Source: Larkinella rosea
Lineage (GTDB): Bacteria; Bacteroidota; Bacteroidia; Cytophagales; Spirosomataceae
DNA: 64,000 nt
Direction: 5' to 3'
Assembly (NCBI RefSeq): GCF_003858635.1
Contig: NZ_RQJO01000009.1
Coordinates: 682,001-746,000, forward strand
How positions within the stretch are numbered: the first letter of the stretch is position 1; every line of letters starts with the position of its first letter. Shown piece after piece: positions 15,644 to 21,972 of this stretch. Below the pieces are notes generated by a model. The model was not told where the DNA came from and searched no databases. It saw only the letters and a program-made list of their open reading frames with translations. Made by a program: the position numbers and the translations under genes.

Positions 15644-15740
15644 GGGTAAGGAGTTGGTTTAAGCGACGTAGGAGTTCGGGTAACATATTGAATTGTTGGA
15701 CAATGTAACGCTAAATTTTAACTTGGTAAATTACTACATC

Positions 15741-15772
15741 AAAAAAGCCAACCCGTTTCGGGGCTGGCTTTT
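15741..15772 (-). terminator. Rho-independent terminator
   Basis: AAAAGCCA and TGGCTTTT flank an inner CCCG/CGGG pair with a TTT loop, giving a strong stem with A/T runs on both sides. It lies 25 bases beyond the end of the protease gene on the reverse strand and probably ends the sigma/protease transcript. Confidence 0.75.
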
Positions 15773-15796
15773 GATTTCGGTAAAACCGTCGATGGC

Positions 15797-16939
15797 TTAT
15801 TTTTCGTGTTTGAAAACCTTCACCATGTACACGCTCTCCTGGATTTTTTTGATCTGATCCTTGCGGGCGAGTTTGGCGAGTCCGTTTTTGCGGCTCATCC
15901 GAATGGAGTTGTTTTTGAGCGAATCGGTCGGGATAGCGGAGATGGCCCGGAAGAGGTAATCGGTTTTGATGGCAAACGTAGCGCCTTCCGACGAGGTTTG
16001 CTTGCCGCTGATGATCCCGATGACATTGCCTTTTTCGTCGAGCAGCGGACCGCCGGAGTTCCCCGGATTCACGCTGATGGCGACCTGATAAGCCGTTGAA
16101 TCTCCCCGGTAACCGGTTTGCGAACTCAAATAGCCTTCGCCGTAAACGATTTCTTCGCGCGGGAAACCGAGTGTAAAGACGCGTTCGCCCAGATCCGAAG
16201 GAGCGGCTTCAAAACCGTACGGCAATACGGTTTTTACCCGGAAAGCGCTGTCTTCGTGCACCTGCAGAATCGCCAGATCGTATTTCCGGTCGGCGTAAAC
16301 AACTTTGGCTTTGTAAATATCACCGCGCGTACTTTGAATGTACACCGAGTCGGCATCCTGAATGATGTGCGTATTGGTAACCAGATAACCGTCTGGCGAC
16401 AATAAAAAACCCGAACCGGCCACCTGACCCGGGTTGATCTGCAAAGCGCGTTCGCGGGCGTTCAAATCCTGCAAAATCGCGTTCTGTGACCGCCGGATGG
16501 CTTGCAAATCCCGGCGCATCATGCTGTATTGTTCCTGTTGCTTGTGACTCGACTGATACTGACGAATCAGCATCAGCGTACCAAACGTGGTGATCAGGGC
16601 AACGGTTGCGGCCACCGCCAGAATCGGGCGGTAGGTTTGCCACAGCTGCCGGACCGTGCCGCCGTTGCGGTGCAGTTTCCGAACTTTCGAAAGTTGATTG
16701 ACTTCCTCCCGAACGGCGTCCATGTCCAGACTGGCCTGAATGCGGTTCAACCGGGCCCGGAAATCCGTCCGTTGGCCATAGGTTTTCATGGCCTTTACCA
16801 ATTGTTGCTGTTCCCGGGCGCGTTGCGCCAGAACCGGGTCCGACCGACGGAGTGTTTCAAATTCCAGCCGCTCGGTTTCGGTCAGCTCGTTGCGGAGCCA
16901 TTTGTCAACCCAGTCGGTGAATTTCTGATTGTCAATCAT
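15797..16939 (-). CDS. Anti-sigma-like membrane protein fused to a periplasmic trypsin-like (S1C) protease
   Basis: 380 residues in three parts. Residues 1-55 are charged and resemble the N-terminal cytoplasmic helix region of Bacteroidota anti-sigma factors (WLRNELTETERLEFETL then SDPVLAQR). Residues ~105-125 are one transmembrane helix (ILAVAATVALITTFGTLMLI). Residues ~135-165 are probably a coiled coil. Residues ~170-335 are a trypsin/DegP-type protease with His191 (VTNTHIIQ), Asp221 (KYDLAIL) and Ser295 (NPGNSGGPLL). No PDZ domain follows. It starts 1 base after the stop of the ECF sigma gene, so the two are translationally linked. I infer that the N-terminus binds the sigma factor and the outer protease domain senses or transmits envelope stress. 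The anti-sigma role is not proven. Confidence 0.85.
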   Translation of the reverse strand: MIDNQKFTDWVDKWLRNELTETERLEFETLRRSDPVLAQRAREQQQLVKAMKTYGQRTDFRARLNRIQASLDMDAVREEVNQLSKVRKLHRNGGTVRQLWQTYRPILAVAATVALITTFGTLMLIRQYQSSHKQQEQYSMMRRDLQAIRRSQNAILQDLNARERALQINPGQVAGSGFLLSPDGYLVTNTHIIQDADSVYIQSTRGDIYKAKVVYADRKYDLAILQVHEDSAFRVKTVLPYGFEAAPSDLGERVFTLGFPREEIVYGEGYLSSQTGYRGDSTAYQVAISVNPGNSGGPLLDEKGNVIGIISGKQTSSEGATFAIKTDYLFRAISAIPTDSLKNNSIRMSRKNGLAKLARKDQIKKIQESVYMVKVFKHEK

Positions 16940-16940
16940 A

Positions 16941-17516
16941 TCACTCTTCTTTAAAAACTGAAAAAAATAGCCGTTTTAGCCGCATCAGACATTTATACTT
17001 CTGTGTTTTGGCATTATCGGCGTTGGTATACCCAAACTTTTCGGTAATATCCTGCATCGACAGGTGGTGGATGTAGAAATCCTCCAGCAAGGTCCGGCAG
17101 GGTTCTCCCAATCGGTCGAGTGAATCGGCCATCAGGTCGAACTGGCGGTCGCGGGCTTCGTGATCGGTCAAATCATCATCCACCTCCGCAACTCCTTCGG
17201 TATCCAAAAGCGAATTTCCGTTCCGGTTTCGCATCGACAACTGCTTAAGCCAAAGCCGACGGCTCACCGAATAGAGGTATGTTTTTAACTGGCAATGTAA
17301 TTCCAGCGAATCCGTAGTGACTTTCTCGTACAGGACGATCAAGGTTTCCTGATAAATATCTTTGGCATCGTCTTCGGTGCCGCTGTTATTCAGAATCAGG
17401 TGCATCACCATCGGAAAATACCGTTTATACAGCTCTTCCAGCACTGTGTCCGAACCGTTGGCCAGGCCCGCAAGGAGTTGGTCATCAGATAAATGCGAAC
17501 GGTTGGATTCTGTCAT
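16941..17516 (-). CDS. ECF-type RNA polymerase sigma factor
   Basis: 191 residues. Region 2 is seen at DDAKDIYQETLIVLYEKV and region 4 at CRTLLEDFYIHHLSMQDITE followed by KFGYTNADNAKTQKYKCLMR. The size and lack of region 3 are typical of ECF sigma factors. The downstream neighbour is the anti-sigma-like protease, and a divergent small lipoprotein gene shares an identical promoter sequence. The 5' untranslated leader appears very short (the -10 ends about 14 bases before the ATG). Autoregulation is inferred from the twin promoters. Confidence 0.93.
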   Translation of the reverse strand: MTESNRSHLSDDQLLAGLANGSDTVLEELYKRYFPMVMHLILNNSGTEDDAKDIYQETLIVLYEKVTTDSLELHCQLKTYLYSVSRRLWLKQLSMRNRNGNSLLDTEGVAEVDDDLTDHEARDRQFDLMADSLDRLGEPCRTLLEDFYIHHLSMQDITEKFGYTNADNAKTQKYKCLMRLKRLFFSVFKEE

Positions 17517-17530
17517 TGCTTCCTTGCCTA

Positions 17531-17560
17531 CTTAATACGATTCCGGGTCAAATGTAACCC
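17531..17560 (-). promoter_or_regulatory. ECF promoter for the sigma operon (GGGTTAC-N15-GTATTAAG)
   Basis: On the reverse strand GGGTTAC (17554-17560), a 15-base spacer, then GTATTAAG (17531-17538). The same two boxes with the same spacing occur on the forward strand at 17593-17622 before the lipoprotein gene. The spacers are unrelated in sequence, so the boxes are conserved on their own. I read them as -35 and -10 elements of the adjacent ECF sigma factor. Confidence 0.8.
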
Positions 17561-17592
17561 AAAAAATTTTTTTAATTTTTTTGAAAAAAGAT

Positions 17593-17622
17593 GGGTTACC
17601 TAACGGCCATTCCTGTATTAAG
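17593..17622 (+). promoter_or_regulatory. ECF promoter for the small lipoprotein (GGGTTAC-N15-GTATTAAG)
   Basis: GGGTTAC (17593-17599), 15 bases, GTATTAAG (17615-17622), ending 35 bases before the ATG at 17658. It is identical in both boxes and spacing to the divergent sigma-operon promoter. Between the two -35 boxes lies a ~30-base A/T-rich core. Confidence 0.8.
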
Positions 17623-17657
17623 GGTGAGATCTATTAACACTTAAACTGACTACTCTC

Positions 17658-17843
17658 ATGAAACGTATTGTAAAATCTGTTTTGTTCGTTGCAACGATGG
17701 TTTCTTTGGCAGCTGCTTGCCAGTCTAAAAAAGCGGAAGATACTACGTCTACAACGGACTCAACTGCAATGTCTTCAGACTCATCAATGATGTCTGACAC
17801 GACGATGGCAACTGATAGCATGTCTGCTGATTCAGCAAAATAA
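17658..17843 (+). CDS. Small Ser/Thr/Met/Asp-rich lipoprotein, probable ECF sigma target
   Basis: 61 residues. Signal peptide with lipobox L-A-A-A-C (Cys21), giving a mature lipoprotein of about 40 residues. The tail is low complexity, almost only Ser, Thr, Asp, Met and Ala (for example SSDSSMMSDTTMATDSMSAD) with no structure-forming core. It carries an ECF-type promoter identical to that of the divergent sigma operon and ends in a good terminator, so it is a single-gene transcript. It could be a structural or buffer lipoprotein produced under envelope stress; the Met-rich acidic tail might bind a metal. Both ideas are inference. Confidence 0.85.
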   Translation: MKRIVKSVLFVATMVSLAAACQSKKAEDTTSTTDSTAMSSDSSMMSDTTMATDSMSADSAK

Positions 17844-17868
17844 GCTATACGTTACTTATTAACGTACG

Positions 17869-17903
17869 AAAGCCGTCCAGCAATGGGCGGCTTTTTGTTT
17901 TTC
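17869..17903 (+). terminator. Rho-independent terminator of the small lipoprotein gene
   Basis: AAAGCCGTCC (17869-17878), loop AGCAAT, GGGCGGCTTT (17885-17894) and a T-rich tail. The 10-bp stem includes one T-G pair. It lies 25 bases after the stop codon. Confidence 0.85.
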
Positions 17904-17985
17904 TGCCATTTTACTCCTGAAAACCGGTTTTTGCGGCAAAAACCGGTTGCACTCCGGACGGAATAGTTTGCCAAAACTATTATTC

Positions 17986-18076: not shown

Positions 18077-18940
18077 ATGGCGAAGAAAGTCTATTTGATT
18101 ATATTCATACTGATTGTCAGCGGATCGGCCTACGCGCAGGGCATTTCAAAAACCGAACGGATCGTGTCCCTGAATGGCACCCTAACCGAAATTCTCTGCG
18201 ACCTGGGTTTGCAACATCAAATTGTGGGCGTCGATATCACCAGCACCTATCCGGCGGCCATGGATAAAGTCCCGAAAGTTGGGCATAACCGCAATATCGG
18301 CGCCGAAGCGGTTTTGGCCCTGCGCCCGACGGTTATCGTAGCCGCGAAGTCCAACGGCAGCATGGACATAAAACCGGAAGTGCTGCAACAATTCAAAAGT
18401 GCCGGGGTGAAAACCCTGCTTTTTGACCAGGAAACGAGCGTGGCCGGAACCAGGGCACTGATCAATGAAGTCGCCAAAGCCGTGGGCGCAACCGCCAAAG
18501 CAACCGCGATCAATCGTAAACTGGACGCCGATCTTGCCAAAGTGAAGAAACCGGTCAAAGCTCAGAAAGTACTCTTCATTTACGCCCGGGGCACCGGCAC
18601 CATGATGGTTTCAGGCCGGAATACACCAATCGAAAAAATTGTTCAACTGGCCGGTGCGCAGAATGCCTTCAACGATTTTGATAATTATAAACCACTCACT
18701 CCCGAAGCGCTCGTGGTCGGGAATCCCGATGTAATCCTGCTGTTTACGAGTGGGTTAGAGAGCCTGGGCGGCATCGACGGTTTGCTGAAAGTACAGGGAA
18801 TTGCCCAAACCAACGCGGGTAAAAACCGCCGGGTAATTGAAATGGACGGCCAGTTGCTGACCGGTTTTAGCCCACGTCTGGGCCTGGCCGTGCAGGAACT
18901 GAGCCGGAAACTGAATCCCGAACTGTCCCTGAAAAACTAA
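18077..18940 (+). CDS. hmuT: Haem ABC transporter, periplasmic substrate-binding protein
   Basis: 287 residues with a signal peptide (YLIIFILIVSGSAYAQG). The body is a TroA/BtuF-type binding protein: RIVSLNGTLTEILCDLG at the start of the first lobe, then VGVDITSTYPAAMDKVPKVG, and LRPTVIVAAKSN. It delivers haem to the HmuUV transporter. The gene is first in an apparent hmuT-U-V-S operon (gaps of 17, 27 and 9 bases) preceded by an iron-box-like promoter. Assignment to haem rather than vitamin B12 or a siderophore rests mainly on the linked hmuS and HmuY genes. Confidence 0.9.
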   Translation: MAKKVYLIIFILIVSGSAYAQGISKTERIVSLNGTLTEILCDLGLQHQIVGVDITSTYPAAMDKVPKVGHNRNIGAEAVLALRPTVIVAAKSNGSMDIKPEVLQQFKSAGVKTLLFDQETSVAGTRALINEVAKAVGATAKATAINRKLDADLAKVKKPVKAQKVLFIYARGTGTMMVSGRNTPIEKIVQLAGAQNAFNDFDNYKPLTPEALVVGNPDVILLFTSGLESLGGIDGLLKVQGIAQTNAGKNRRVIEMDGQLLTGFSPRLGLAVQELSRKLNPELSLKN

Positions 18941-18957
18941 CGACTCCGACTGATTCC

Positions 18958-20064
18958 ATGCAAGCCGACCTCCCCAATACCCTGACTGCCGCACCGCCGA
19001 AACGTTCTGTCCAAACCGGGTTGCCCCGTGCCAAAGGCGGGTGGCTGAACGGCTTGCTGATCGTGCTGCTGGTGGTCGTGATGATCTGGTCGGTGGGCAT
19101 CGGCGCCGTATCGATTCCGATTCCGGACGTGCTGGCGATTCTGTTGGGAAAGATTGGCTGGAACATTGGCGTCGTCGAACCGCAGCAGGAAACCGTATTG
19201 ACCGTGATTCGCCTGCCGCGCATTCTATTGGGCGTGCTGGTCGGTGGCGTTCTCGGTATTTCCGGCGCGGCCATTCAGGGCTTATTTCGCAATCCGCTGG
19301 CCGATCCGGGCCTGATCGGGATTTCGTCGGGAGCCTCCGTCATGGCGGTTTTGATGATCGTACTGCAACTGAAGGTTTTCCAGGACCTGTCGTCGCTTTC
19401 CGGTTTGTACGCGCTGTCACTGGCGGCTTTTGCCGGAGCGGTTTTTACAACGCTGCTGGTCTACACGCTGGCGCGTAAAAACGGCCGAACCGTTGTTTCA
19501 ACGATGTTACTGGTCGGAATTGCCATCAATGTATTGTGCGAATCGCTGCGCGGTTTGATGATGTATCTGGCCGATGAAGCGCAATTGCGGGCCATTTCCT
19601 ACTGGAGCATGGGCAGTCTGGGTGGGGCAAGTTGGGACGTGCTACAGGTTGCCTCGCCGTTTTTGCTGATTCCGATTCTGTTGATGCCCCGGCTGAGTAA
19701 ATCCATGAATGCGTTCGCGCTGGGCGAAAGTCAGGCGGGTCATTTGGGAGTCGATGTTTCGAAACTGAAACGGAATGTCATTATTCTGGCGACGCTGGGC
19801 GTCGGCGTCGCGGTGGCGGTTTCGGGCGTGATCGGTTTTATTGGACTGGTCGTTCCGCACCTGATTCGTCAGATTTCGGGCGCCAACCACCGGACGGTTT
19901 TACCGGCTTCGGCCCTGCTGGGAGCCATTGTCCTGACGTTATCGGATCTGGTGGCACGTACCATCGTCACTCCCGCCGAATTACCCATCGGAATCATCAC
20001 CGGTATGATCGGTGCGCCAACGTTTTTGTACATGCTGATCCGGGGGGCGGGCGATCGGGCCTGA
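18958..20064 (+). CDS. hmuU: Haem ABC transporter, FecCD-type permease
   Basis: 368 residues with about 9-10 transmembrane helices. Family markers are LPRILLGVLVGGVLGISGAA followed by IQGLFRNPLADPGLIGISSG, and later GVIGFIGLVVPHLIRQISG. This is the inner-membrane pore of the haem importer, working as a dimer with HmuV. The N-terminus has an extra ~35 hydrophilic residues before the first helix, so a later start cannot be excluded. Confidence 0.93.
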   Translation: MQADLPNTLTAAPPKRSVQTGLPRAKGGWLNGLLIVLLVVVMIWSVGIGAVSIPIPDVLAILLGKIGWNIGVVEPQQETVLTVIRLPRILLGVLVGGVLGISGAAIQGLFRNPLADPGLIGISSGASVMAVLMIVLQLKVFQDLSSLSGLYALSLAAFAGAVFTTLLVYTLARKNGRTVVSTMLLVGIAINVLCESLRGLMMYLADEAQLRAISYWSMGSLGGASWDVLQVASPFLLIPILLMPRLSKSMNAFALGESQAGHLGVDVSKLKRNVIILATLGVGVAVAVSGVIGFIGLVVPHLIRQISGANHRTVLPASALLGAIVLTLSDLVARTIVTPAELPIGIITGMIGAPTFLYMLIRGAGDRA

Positions 20065-20091
20065 ATACCGTAAACCAAAAAAACGAGTATC

Positions 20092-20928
20092 ATGCTGGAA
20101 GCGCAACATATCACGCATCAAATTAACCGGAAAACGTTGCTGGACGACGTATCGCTGGTGGTGCGGCCGGGCGAACTGGTGGCGGTAGTCGGAGCCAATG
20201 GCGCCGGGAAATCGACGCTTTTGAAAACGATTAGCCGGGAGTTGACGCCCACCAAAGGGGAGGTGGTGCTGGATAAAAAACCGCTTAACCGGTTTTCGTC
20301 ACTCGATCTGGCCCGACGGCGGGCGGTTTTGGCGCAGCAGAACCCGTTGGCGTTCGAGTTCAGCGTTTATGAATTGGTGATGATGGGGCGGTATCCGCAT
20401 TTTGAAGGTCACCCACATCCCGAAGATCTGGCGATTGTCGATTTTGCGCTGGAGCGAACCGGCATTGCTCATTTGGCCAGACGGGCCGTTCCGACGCTTT
20501 CGGGCGGGGAGCAGCAGCGGGTTCACCTGGCCAAAATTCTGGCCCAATTGATGGGCATCGAGGAAATCAATCGGCCCGAAGCATCCATTCGTCAGACTAA
20601 ATATTTGCTGCTCGACGAACCGACTACGGGGCTGGATTTTTATTACCAGCACAGTTTGCTGGAAGTAGCCAGTGAACTCACCCGGCGCGGTTACGGTGTT
20701 GTCGCGATCTTGCACGATCTGAATCTGGTGATGCAATACGCCGATAACGTGCTGTTGCTCAGGGAAGGAAAAGCCCTGTCGTTTGGCAAACCGGCCTCGG
20801 TGCTGACAGCGGAGTCCATTTTTAACGCATTCAATTTATCCGTTCATATTATTCACCAGCCCGAACTGGACTGTCCGCTGATTGTCCATACCCGGCAAAC
20901 CGTTCCTCTCACGGCTCAAATTAATTAA
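20092..20928 (+). CDS. hmuV: Haem ABC transporter, ATP-binding protein
   Basis: 278 residues. Walker A GANGAGKST, Q-loop near VLAQQNPLAF, signature LSGGEQQRVHLAKILAQL and Walker B YLLLDEPTTGLDF are all intact, so it should hydrolyse ATP and drive haem import. A ~15-residue insert lies between the signature and Walker B (MGIEEINRPEASIRQTK), a feature also seen in some HmuV proteins. Confidence 0.93.
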   Translation: MLEAQHITHQINRKTLLDDVSLVVRPGELVAVVGANGAGKSTLLKTISRELTPTKGEVVLDKKPLNRFSSLDLARRRAVLAQQNPLAFEFSVYELVMMGRYPHFEGHPHPEDLAIVDFALERTGIAHLARRAVPTLSGGEQQRVHLAKILAQLMGIEEINRPEASIRQTKYLLLDEPTTGLDFYYQHSLLEVASELTRRGYGVVAILHDLNLVMQYADNVLLLREGKALSFGKPASVLTAESIFNAFNLSVHIIHQPELDCPLIVHTRQTVPLTAQIN

Positions 20929-20937
20929 CGAAACAAC

Positions 20938-21972
20938 ATGACAACGACCGTTCTCGACCTGAAAAAACACTATGCAGCTTTCAAAGCCGAAAATCCGAAA
21001 GTGCGCATTCGCGATGCGGCTCAGCAATTGGGCGTAAGCGAAGCCGAACTGGTTGCCACGGGCGTGGGCGAAACCGCTACCCAACTGGAAGGCGATTTTC
21101 GGGAATTATTGAAAGAAGTACCCACGCTGGGGTACGTTATGGCGTTGACCCGCAATGAAAGTGTCGTGCACGAACGCAAAGGCGAATACCTGAATGTGTC
21201 GTTCAACGGCCATGTTGGGCTGGTTTTGGGCGAAGACATTGACCTGCGGTTGTTTCTGGCCAGCTGGAAATTTGGGTTTGCCGTTCACGAAAATGATCGC
21301 AAAAGCCTGCAGTTCTTTGCCGGGGACGGTGAGGCCATTCATAAAATTTACCTGACCGATAAAAGCAATGAAGCGGCTTACGACGCCCTCGTTGCGAAAT
21401 ACCGGGCGGCCAATCCGTCGGGTCAGCTGGAAATAGAGCCCAAACCGGAAACCGTTGCCCCCACGCCTGATTCGGAAATCGACGTGGCGGCTTTTCAGGA
21501 AGCCTGGTTGAACCTGAAAGACACGCACGAGTTTTTTGGCATGTTGCGGAAGAATAAAGTAAACCGCTTGCAGGCTATGCAGTTTGCGCCGGAAGGGTAC
21601 GCACTGCCGATTTCGATGGATGCGGTGAAGAACGTCTTTACCGAAGTTTCTAAAACCGGTCTGCCAATCATGATTTTTGTCGGAAACCGGGGATGTATTC
21701 AAATCCATACGGGCGAAGTGCGGAAACTGGTGGCGATGGGACCGTGGTTTAACGTGCTCGATCCGCAGTTTAACCTCCATTTGCGCGAAGACCACATCGC
21801 GTCGGCCTGGGTGGTGAAGAAGCCAACCACGGATGGCATTGTCACGAGCCTGGAATTGTACGACGCCGAGGGCAATCAGATTGCGCTGGTTTTTGGTAAA
21901 CGCAAACCCGGCATTCCCGAAAAAACCGAATGGCGCGAAGTGGTTGCCCAAACGGCTTTGGCAGTAAATTAA
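20938..21972 (+). CDS. hmuS: Hemin-degrading/haem-trafficking factor HmuS
   Basis: 344 residues, the usual length of HemS/HmuS/ChuS, built from two similar halves (an N-terminal half with GYVMALTRNESVVHERKGEY and a C-terminal half with GLPIMIFVGNRGCIQIHTG and WFNVLDPQFNLHLREDHIAS). These cytoplasmic proteins accept haem from the importer and break it down or pass it on. It follows hmuV by 9 bases and is clearly in the same operon. Confidence 0.93.
   Translation: MTTTVLDLKKHYAAFKAENPKVRIRDAAQQLGVSEAELVATGVGETATQLEGDFRELLKEVPTLGYVMALTRNESVVHERKGEYLNVSFNGHVGLVLGEDIDLRLFLASWKFGFAVHENDRKSLQFFAGDGEAIHKIYLTDKSNEAAYDALVAKYRAANPSGQLEIEPKPETVAPTPDSEIDVAAFQEAWLNLKDTHEFFGMLRKNKVNRLQAMQFAPEGYALPISMDAVKNVFTEVSKTGLPIMIFVGNRGCIQIHTGEVRKLVAMGPWFNVLDPQFNLHLREDHIASAWVVKKPTTDGIVTSLELYDAEGNQIALVFGKRKPGIPEKTEWREVVAQTALAVN

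Follow-up and report, generated by a model that had tools for sequence, protein, structure and literature searches.

We identified a putative regulatory module in the genome of Larkinella rosea in which the genes for an extracytoplasmic function (ECF) sigma factor, a membrane protein that joins an anti-sigma-like N-terminus to a serine protease domain, and a divergently encoded small lipoprotein lie side by side. The window (the whole 64,000-nt stretch that was analysed, contig NZ_RQJO01000009.1, positions 682,001-746,000; all coordinates below are those of the window) encodes the sigma factor on the minus strand (16941-17516, 191 aa), followed after a single base (position 16940) by the membrane protein gene (15797-16939, minus strand, 380 aa, ATG start, one open reading frame). 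The start of the lipoprotein gene (17658-17843, plus strand, 61 aa) faces away from the sigma gene start at a distance of 141 bp. This is the three-gene layout that an earlier reading, made from the sequence alone, had proposed. We consider it probable that the module is autoregulated and that its membrane protein serves as an anti-sigma factor, with a PDZ-less, DegS-like HtrA domain outside the membrane.

The neighbourhood, whose conservation the sequence-only reading had left to be checked in relatives, proved to be stable. The sigma gene is directly upstream of the protease gene in 29 of 30 loci from the window's family, in 82 of 84 across Cytophagales and Chitinophagaceae, and in 30 of 30 loci of the class set; these three sets share some genomes. 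The one exception in the family and the two in the second set all lie at contig ends. The junction in relatives is a short gap or an overlap. The protease itself occurs in 33 of 121 family genomes (E 1e-30), with one copy each, and not in the remaining 88, in 149 of 390 genomes of the order (E 1e-40), and in 37 of 392 genomes of a phylum sample (E 1e-45), 31 of which the tool's grouping assigns to the class of the window. Twenty-nine of these 31 proteins match from the N-terminus, and the six from other classes match in the protease domain only. Among the named carriers are Larkinella, Spirosoma, Rudanella, Fibrisoma, Fibrella, Terrimonas, and Agriterribacter. The counts given below for distinct loci refer to 94 loci with a sigma gene, which remained after 17 duplicates (judged by the last 250 protease residues) were removed from the 111 such loci of the first two sets.

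The protease domain of the membrane protein (residues 173-341; 15917-16423, minus strand) matches PF13365 (Trypsin_2) with 91.2 bits (cut-off 27.6). NCBIfam HtrA/DegS models match the same region, all below their curated cut-offs, and models of the DegP/DegQ/DegS/MarP type match all 97 members of alignment A3 at E 0.01. The catalytic residues, located by direct count, are His191 (16367-16369), Asp221 (16277-16279), and Ser295 (16055-16057), the last within a GNSGG motif. The triad is kept in 92 of the 94 distinct loci and in 240 of 240 database proteins among those listed. Fold comparison of the predicted structure found an HtrA/DegS-deltaPDZ fold with DegS among the closest folds, consistent with an HtrA-type chymotrypsin fold that carries its catalytic triad. 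No Pfam match to a PDZ domain was found in the window protein at E values up to 1. Beyond the protease domain the protein extends for about 40 residues, and this C-terminal tail (residues 342-380; 15800-15916, minus strand) ends in a conserved QIK..Q..VYMVKVFKH-like sequence within the window's family (14 proteins, alignment A1). One transmembrane helix (residues 104-129; 16553-16630, minus strand) is predicted by AlphaFold2, with a predicted local distance difference test (pLDDT) score partly below 50, and coincides with the hydropathy maximum at about residues 106-125. The topology that we infer from this helix would place the protease domain beyond the membrane, on its outer side. The complete trypsin-like domain and the single transmembrane helix of the sequence-only reading are thus both present, and the domain can be refined to an HtrA type that lacks PDZ. 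Conservation of the triad shows that catalysis matters and is compatible with a role in the trigger or in the effect. Among named database proteins, one from Larkinella terrae is the closest (95%). Listed relatives are named "serine protease Do", "S1C family serine protease" or similar, or hypothetical protein, so that annotation hides the regulatory role proposed here.

The region in front of the transmembrane helix (residues 1-86; 16682-16939, minus strand) is modelled by AlphaFold2 as four helices (residues 4-15, 21-33, 35-70, and 73-86), with pLDDT averaged over ten-residue blocks of 70-91 for residues 1-80 and 57 for residues 81-90. Aligned with hhalign to a profile of 20 anti-sigma N-termini from related bacteria, it gave a probability of 80.5 and an E value of 1.3e-5, and the controls (the reversed and ten shuffled profiles) gave a probability of at most 0.8. 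The 20 sequences derive from 30 NF052375 loci, after exclusion of six with a wrong frame or start, two that looked like another protein type (L213 and L214), and two identical ones. NF052375 itself matches the window protein weakly (21.5 bits, cut-off 100) and matches 12 of the 97 A3 members, with a best E value of 5.5e-6. Profile comparison thus supports homology between this N-terminal region and anti-sigma domains: the window protein combines homology to class I anti-sigma factors, an adjoining ECF sigma gene, and a predicted four-helix arrangement.

The sigma factor matches TIGR02937 (sigma70-ECF) with 55.0 bits (cut-off 42.9) over residues 26-182, and PF04542 (region 2) with 32.5 bits (cut-off 24); no separate Pfam match covers region 4. 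A profile that covers most of this protein of about 190 aa assigns it to the ECF superfamily. It is one among many, as the family of sigma region 2 has 82 matches in the 8.17-Mb genome of L. rosea.

The 141-bp spacer between the divergent genes carries the sequence TGGGTTAC-N15-GTATTAA before the sigma gene and, facing it, before the lipoprotein gene. These promoter-like elements (GGTTAC-N15-GTATTA) lie at 17533-17559 on the minus strand and at 17594-17620 on the plus strand. With a loose pattern, both are found in all 29 family loci that have the sigma gene, and the rest of the spacer varies. With a strict pattern, 80 of the 94 distinct loci have the element on the sigma side, 65 on the divergent side, and 64 on both, whereas 200 permuted motifs averaged 0.135 loci on the sigma side (at most 3) and 0.07 on the divergent side (at most 2). 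The two halves are separated by 15 bases (62 sigma-side and 61 divergent-side loci) or 16 bases (18 and 4).

In the L. rosea genome, the exact element occurs at two sites, both at the module (backwards control, 4). A search of the same genome for a wider regulon, allowing up to two mismatches in 15 positions, returned 8 sites against 10 in the backwards control, and only the two local sites were exact. Hand sums over the 33 family genomes give 65 sites at the module, 77 elsewhere, and 120 in the backwards control, so that sites elsewhere in the family are not in excess. The 65 comprise two sites in each of 32 genomes and one in G026; the pair of G067 lies on a different contig from its protease piece. 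Across 24 genomes outside the family, again summed by hand, the exact pattern occurs 75 times, in 40 cases at the module and in 35 away from it (control, 26). The simplest reading of these motif counts is that GGTTAC-N15-GTATTA is the promoter of this sigma factor and drives little else in the window's family. The module had been described as self-contained, which fits the window's genome, where both sites are local; other genera have more targets.

The lipoprotein has a signal peptide with a lipobox cysteine (LAAAC; MKRIVKSVLFVATMVSLAAAC in the window) and is thereby recognizable as a lipoprotein; its mature part is rich in Thr, Ser, Asp, and Met. A divergent small lipoprotein is found in 75 of the 94 distinct loci, there with a lipobox pattern, and in 28 of 30 loci of the class set. 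Over all loci, the mature sequences consist of 26% Thr, 17% Ser, 15% Ala, and 10% Asp, and the commonest C-terminus is SAK (36 of 75), which is not hydrophobic. They contain 310 D[ST] pairs, compared with a mean of 152 and a maximum of 176 after shuffling, in a set of loci that are unevenly related. Such pairs resemble the O-glycosylation motif of Bacteroidota.

A small lipoprotein gene, defined by a fixed rule, follows all 65 divergent-side elements. Outside the family we inspected 20 element-bearing stretches, four of which are tandem arrays at the module and 16 of which are distant sites in other genera, picked by eye from 35 for their likeness to the consensus and hence not a random sample. 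By that rule, five of the 16 distant elements precede a small lipoprotein of the same kind, compared with 9 of 8,037 random positions in the analysed loci, which supports the link between sigma factor and lipoprotein beyond the window. In the tandem arrays (L258, L259, L260, and L261), two or three lipoprotein genes stand at the module, most with their own element; in L259 and L260 the sigma-proximal gene is without a strict element and the distal ones carry it. Three distant sites, in another family (L251, L253, and L263), precede a protein of 96-102 residues of the AMPK/CBM48 glycogen-binding type, a family assignment confirmed for L253 alone. One further element precedes a longer protein with an AMPK/CBM48 fragment and itself lies inside open frames, one (in L270) precedes a second ECF-sigma-like gene, and the remaining six precede unrelated frames or nothing clear. 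The proposal that the lipoprotein is the probable main output is therefore strengthened, as its gene shares an element with the sigma gene and lipoproteins of the same kind stand behind 5 of 16 distant copies. The sigma-like gene behind the element in L270 points to a possible sigma cascade.

Based on these data we propose the following circuit. The sigma and protease genes would be co-transcribed from an element that is common to the lipoprotein gene, and active sigma would thus raise the levels of sigma, inhibitor-protease, and lipoprotein. The cytoplasmic N-terminus is expected from its homology and from the operon structure to hold the sigma factor. A trigger outside the inner membrane, e.g., an unfolded or mislocalised envelope protein, may remodel the protease domain; this domain, acting on its own polypeptide, on an adjacent copy, or on a partner, would begin the loss of the anti-sigma domain. 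A site-2 protease probably completes the removal, and the two M50 protease genes of the L. rosea genome encode candidates for this second cut. The absence of a PDZ domain means that the signal cannot be sensed as a C-terminal peptide in the manner of DegS. Judging from the genome-wide motif count, the output in L. rosea would be mainly the Ser/Thr/Asp-rich lipoprotein and the module itself.

A bolder form of this proposal is a self-triggering anti-sigma factor, in which one polypeptide holds sigma, senses the outside disturbance as a PDZ-less DegS, and initiates its own loss through cleavage of itself or of an adjacent copy, and which would serve as an envelope switch for much of Cytophagales and Chitinophagales. 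We regard this as plausible, although we lean slightly away from it. If it were true, a regulon would have narrowed to the module and a set of rapidly evolving, probably glycosylated mini-lipoproteins, and the anti-sigma domain of the Spirosoma clade would have shrunk from class I to a class II-like form with the circuit still running.

The protease may instead be an effector rather than the trigger, an explanation that we consider rather unlikely. Here, sigma would raise a membrane-anchored protease and a lipoprotein for envelope repair, the anti-sigma tail on each protease molecule would act as a counter that shuts sigma off once there is sufficient protease, and release of sigma would be begun by another protease or by a conformational change. 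Such a role is in keeping with the protease gene being itself a predicted target of the element, with a triad so widely kept, as expected for an enzyme with its own substrates, and with the lack of any further exact element site in the L. rosea genome. Nothing speaks directly against it, but DegS, one of the closest folds, is a site-1 protease for the E. coli anti-sigma factor, as stated in excerpts of PMC8103513.

We also considered that the lipoprotein is the signal or the substrate rather than the output: after failed export, acylation, or glycosylation it would meet the protease and trigger the switch. This idea is compatible with the other readings and accords with the position of the gene opposite sigma in 75 of 94 loci, its tandem duplication in some genomes, and the enrichment of pairs that resemble an O-glycosylation motif. 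It is nonetheless improbable, because the protease has no PDZ domain with which to read a C-terminus, the commonest C-terminus is not of the hydrophobic kind, and the loci without a lipoprotein still hold both sigma and protease.

Several results weigh against the anti-sigma circuit that we prefer. No divergent lipoprotein was found in 19 of the 94 loci, and 14 of 94 have no strict motif on the sigma side, which in a few may reflect a sigma start that was set too far upstream. Outside the family, element sites that lie off the module are hardly more numerous than those of the control (35 versus 26), and most of them may be due to chance. A profile search of the PDB with the anti-sigma alignment returned no anti-sigma factor among the best 60 of 130 matches, and the best match among those listed is the HigB-2 toxin (E 0.071). 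Helices 1-2 of the anti-sigma domain are absent in 32 of the 94 distinct loci, with the rest of the module kept. Finally, a joined model of sigma and protease from a truncated relative, in which intergenic stops were read as residues, reached a mean pLDDT of 68.5 and a predicted template modelling (pTM) score of 0.43; in this low-confidence model, residues 242-268 of the model form a helix where the truncated N-terminus lies, and docking is not readable from it. VIA-align searches listed no sigma or anti-sigma chains among 50 rows each, which the protease domain fills, and are uninformative either way. Among the loci in which sigma and protease are kept and no divergent small lipoprotein was found are L168-L170, L172-L177, L180-L183, L187, and L188 (families f4 and f22 of the order).

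The loss of helices 1-2 bears on whether the N-terminus is an anti-sigma domain at all. The short-form proteins begin at about residue 40 and are of the Spirosoma, Rudanella, Fibrisoma, and Fibrella types and similar (the Spirosoma clade). In a protease tree of 92 rows, from which L146 and L148 were excluded for their short or broken frames, the short form is confined to a 43-row clade of the window's family, with at least two changes of state, and all 49 rows outside that clade have the long form. The long-form N-terminus is therefore probably ancestral, as far as the tree can tell. The N-terminus could nevertheless have ceased to be an anti-sigma domain, or never have been mainly one, in which case the protease would be a co-transcribed quality-control enzyme, and control of sigma would fall to its synthesis or to other partners. 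Retention of the module after the loss of two helices, the lack of an anti-sigma factor among the PDB matches listed, and the NF052375 score far below its cut-off point this way. We judge this very improbable, given the similarity of its profile to that of anti-sigma factors in related bacteria, the long form throughout the rest of the tree, and the sigma gene placed directly before the protease gene with a short gap or overlap. Moreover, helices 3-4 could retain the sigma2 interface: in the class I complexes described by Wu et al. (excerpts of PMC7406223), helix 1 contacts sigma4, and helix 4 contacts sigma2 and sets specificity. A domain cut to helices 3-4 might thus hold sigma one-sidedly, like a class II anti-sigma factor. 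Overall, the anti-sigma-like N-terminus that had been claimed gains from the profile comparison and the predicted helices and loses in the Spirosoma clade, where helices 1-2 are missing. That the three genes form a chance arrangement is virtually inconceivable and was rejected, as gene order is conserved across relatives and the promoter-like elements are shared.

A wrong start codon that hides the N-terminus in Spirosoma-type relatives was examined in 18 short-form loci and rejected: 11 have a stop in the protease frame between the sigma stop and the start, four leave too short a gap or have overlapping genes, and in three (L020, L023, and L030) the frame is open, yet the sequence is unlike an anti-sigma domain. 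Separately, a contig labelled Flavobacterium sp. SUN052 (L111) has a short-form copy that falls inside the window-family clade, which probably reflects contamination or a wrong label.

The module resembles the E. coli sigmaE-RseA-DegS-RseP system in its ECF sigma factor, its membrane-spanning anti-sigma-type protein, its DegS-type protease domain, the M50 genes in the genome, and an operon that is, by its motif, autoregulated. It differs in that the anti-sigma part and the protease are one polypeptide of 380 aa and not separate proteins, in that the protease has no PDZ domain, unlike E. coli DegS, and in that the predicted regulon in its own genome is tiny. The HtrA-type domain is like those of the DegP, DegQ, DegS, and MarP proteases, but the module protein has no PDZ and has a sigma-linked anti-sigma N-terminus. 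MucD of Pseudomonas and the mycobacterial sigE-rseA-htrA operon also place an HtrA gene in an ECF sigma operon; in both, the protease is a separate gene beside a separate anti-sigma gene, unlike here. To our knowledge, anti-sigma factors have generally been described as non-enzymatic sensors that are cut by other proteases.

A cytoplasmic four-helix domain, a transmembrane helix, and an extra outer domain are shared with the class I anti-sigma factors (ASDI) treated in PMC7406223; according to excerpts of that study, an ASDI is encoded beside only 6% of the ECFs of Bacteroidetes. The main text of that study does not contain "trypsin" and contains "peptidase" and "protease" once each, in the references; fusions may be given in its table S1 or figures. 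In excerpts of PMC8999054, IutY and ECF36 likewise fuse two parts of a sigma circuit, but these are sigma and anti-sigma and not anti-sigma and protease. The same excerpts describe protease genes near the ECF sigma gene in ECF54, as here; ECF54 differs in having carboxypeptidase, subtilase, and CHAT domains and no anti-sigma factor, and its sigma is thought to be degraded. Full-text literature searches did not recover the layout among the titles and abstract openings listed, and the main ECF reclassification paper or its tables may mention it. Within the literature searched, each domain is already known and their combination with this regulon is the new part.

If one protein is both anti-sigma factor and protease, the DegS-RseA step becomes open to testing within a single molecule. 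The module is also a candidate control for a group of Bacteroidota ECF sigma factors, whose regulation is largely unassigned according to excerpts of PMC7406223, and its range from full to truncated anti-sigma domains in the same circuit offers a natural series for the minimal requirements of an anti-sigma factor. It is of interest as a widespread, directly testable system that is not annotated as a regulator, with a central step that is a proposal.

Both transcription units resemble closed units, as each ends in a strong hairpin with a T-run. The one 3' of the lipoprotein gene (17868-17905, plus strand, z -4.42) was found in a consensus scan, and the one 3' of the protease gene (15738-15775, minus strand, z -4.62) is absent from the list of that scan. 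No RNA family reached its gathering score between 14000 and 20000. Generic sigma70 promoters numbered 6 (2.7 expected), and none coincides with the two GGTTAC elements. An apparent haem/cobalamin-type uptake set (18077-21972) adjoins the lipoprotein gene. It includes a substrate-binding protein with PF01497, and its permease, ATPase, and further open reading frames were assigned by eye. Of 42 named loci, 6 have the first two genes of this set beside the module, and all 6 are from Larkinella, a distribution that places the uptake genes outside the wider module.

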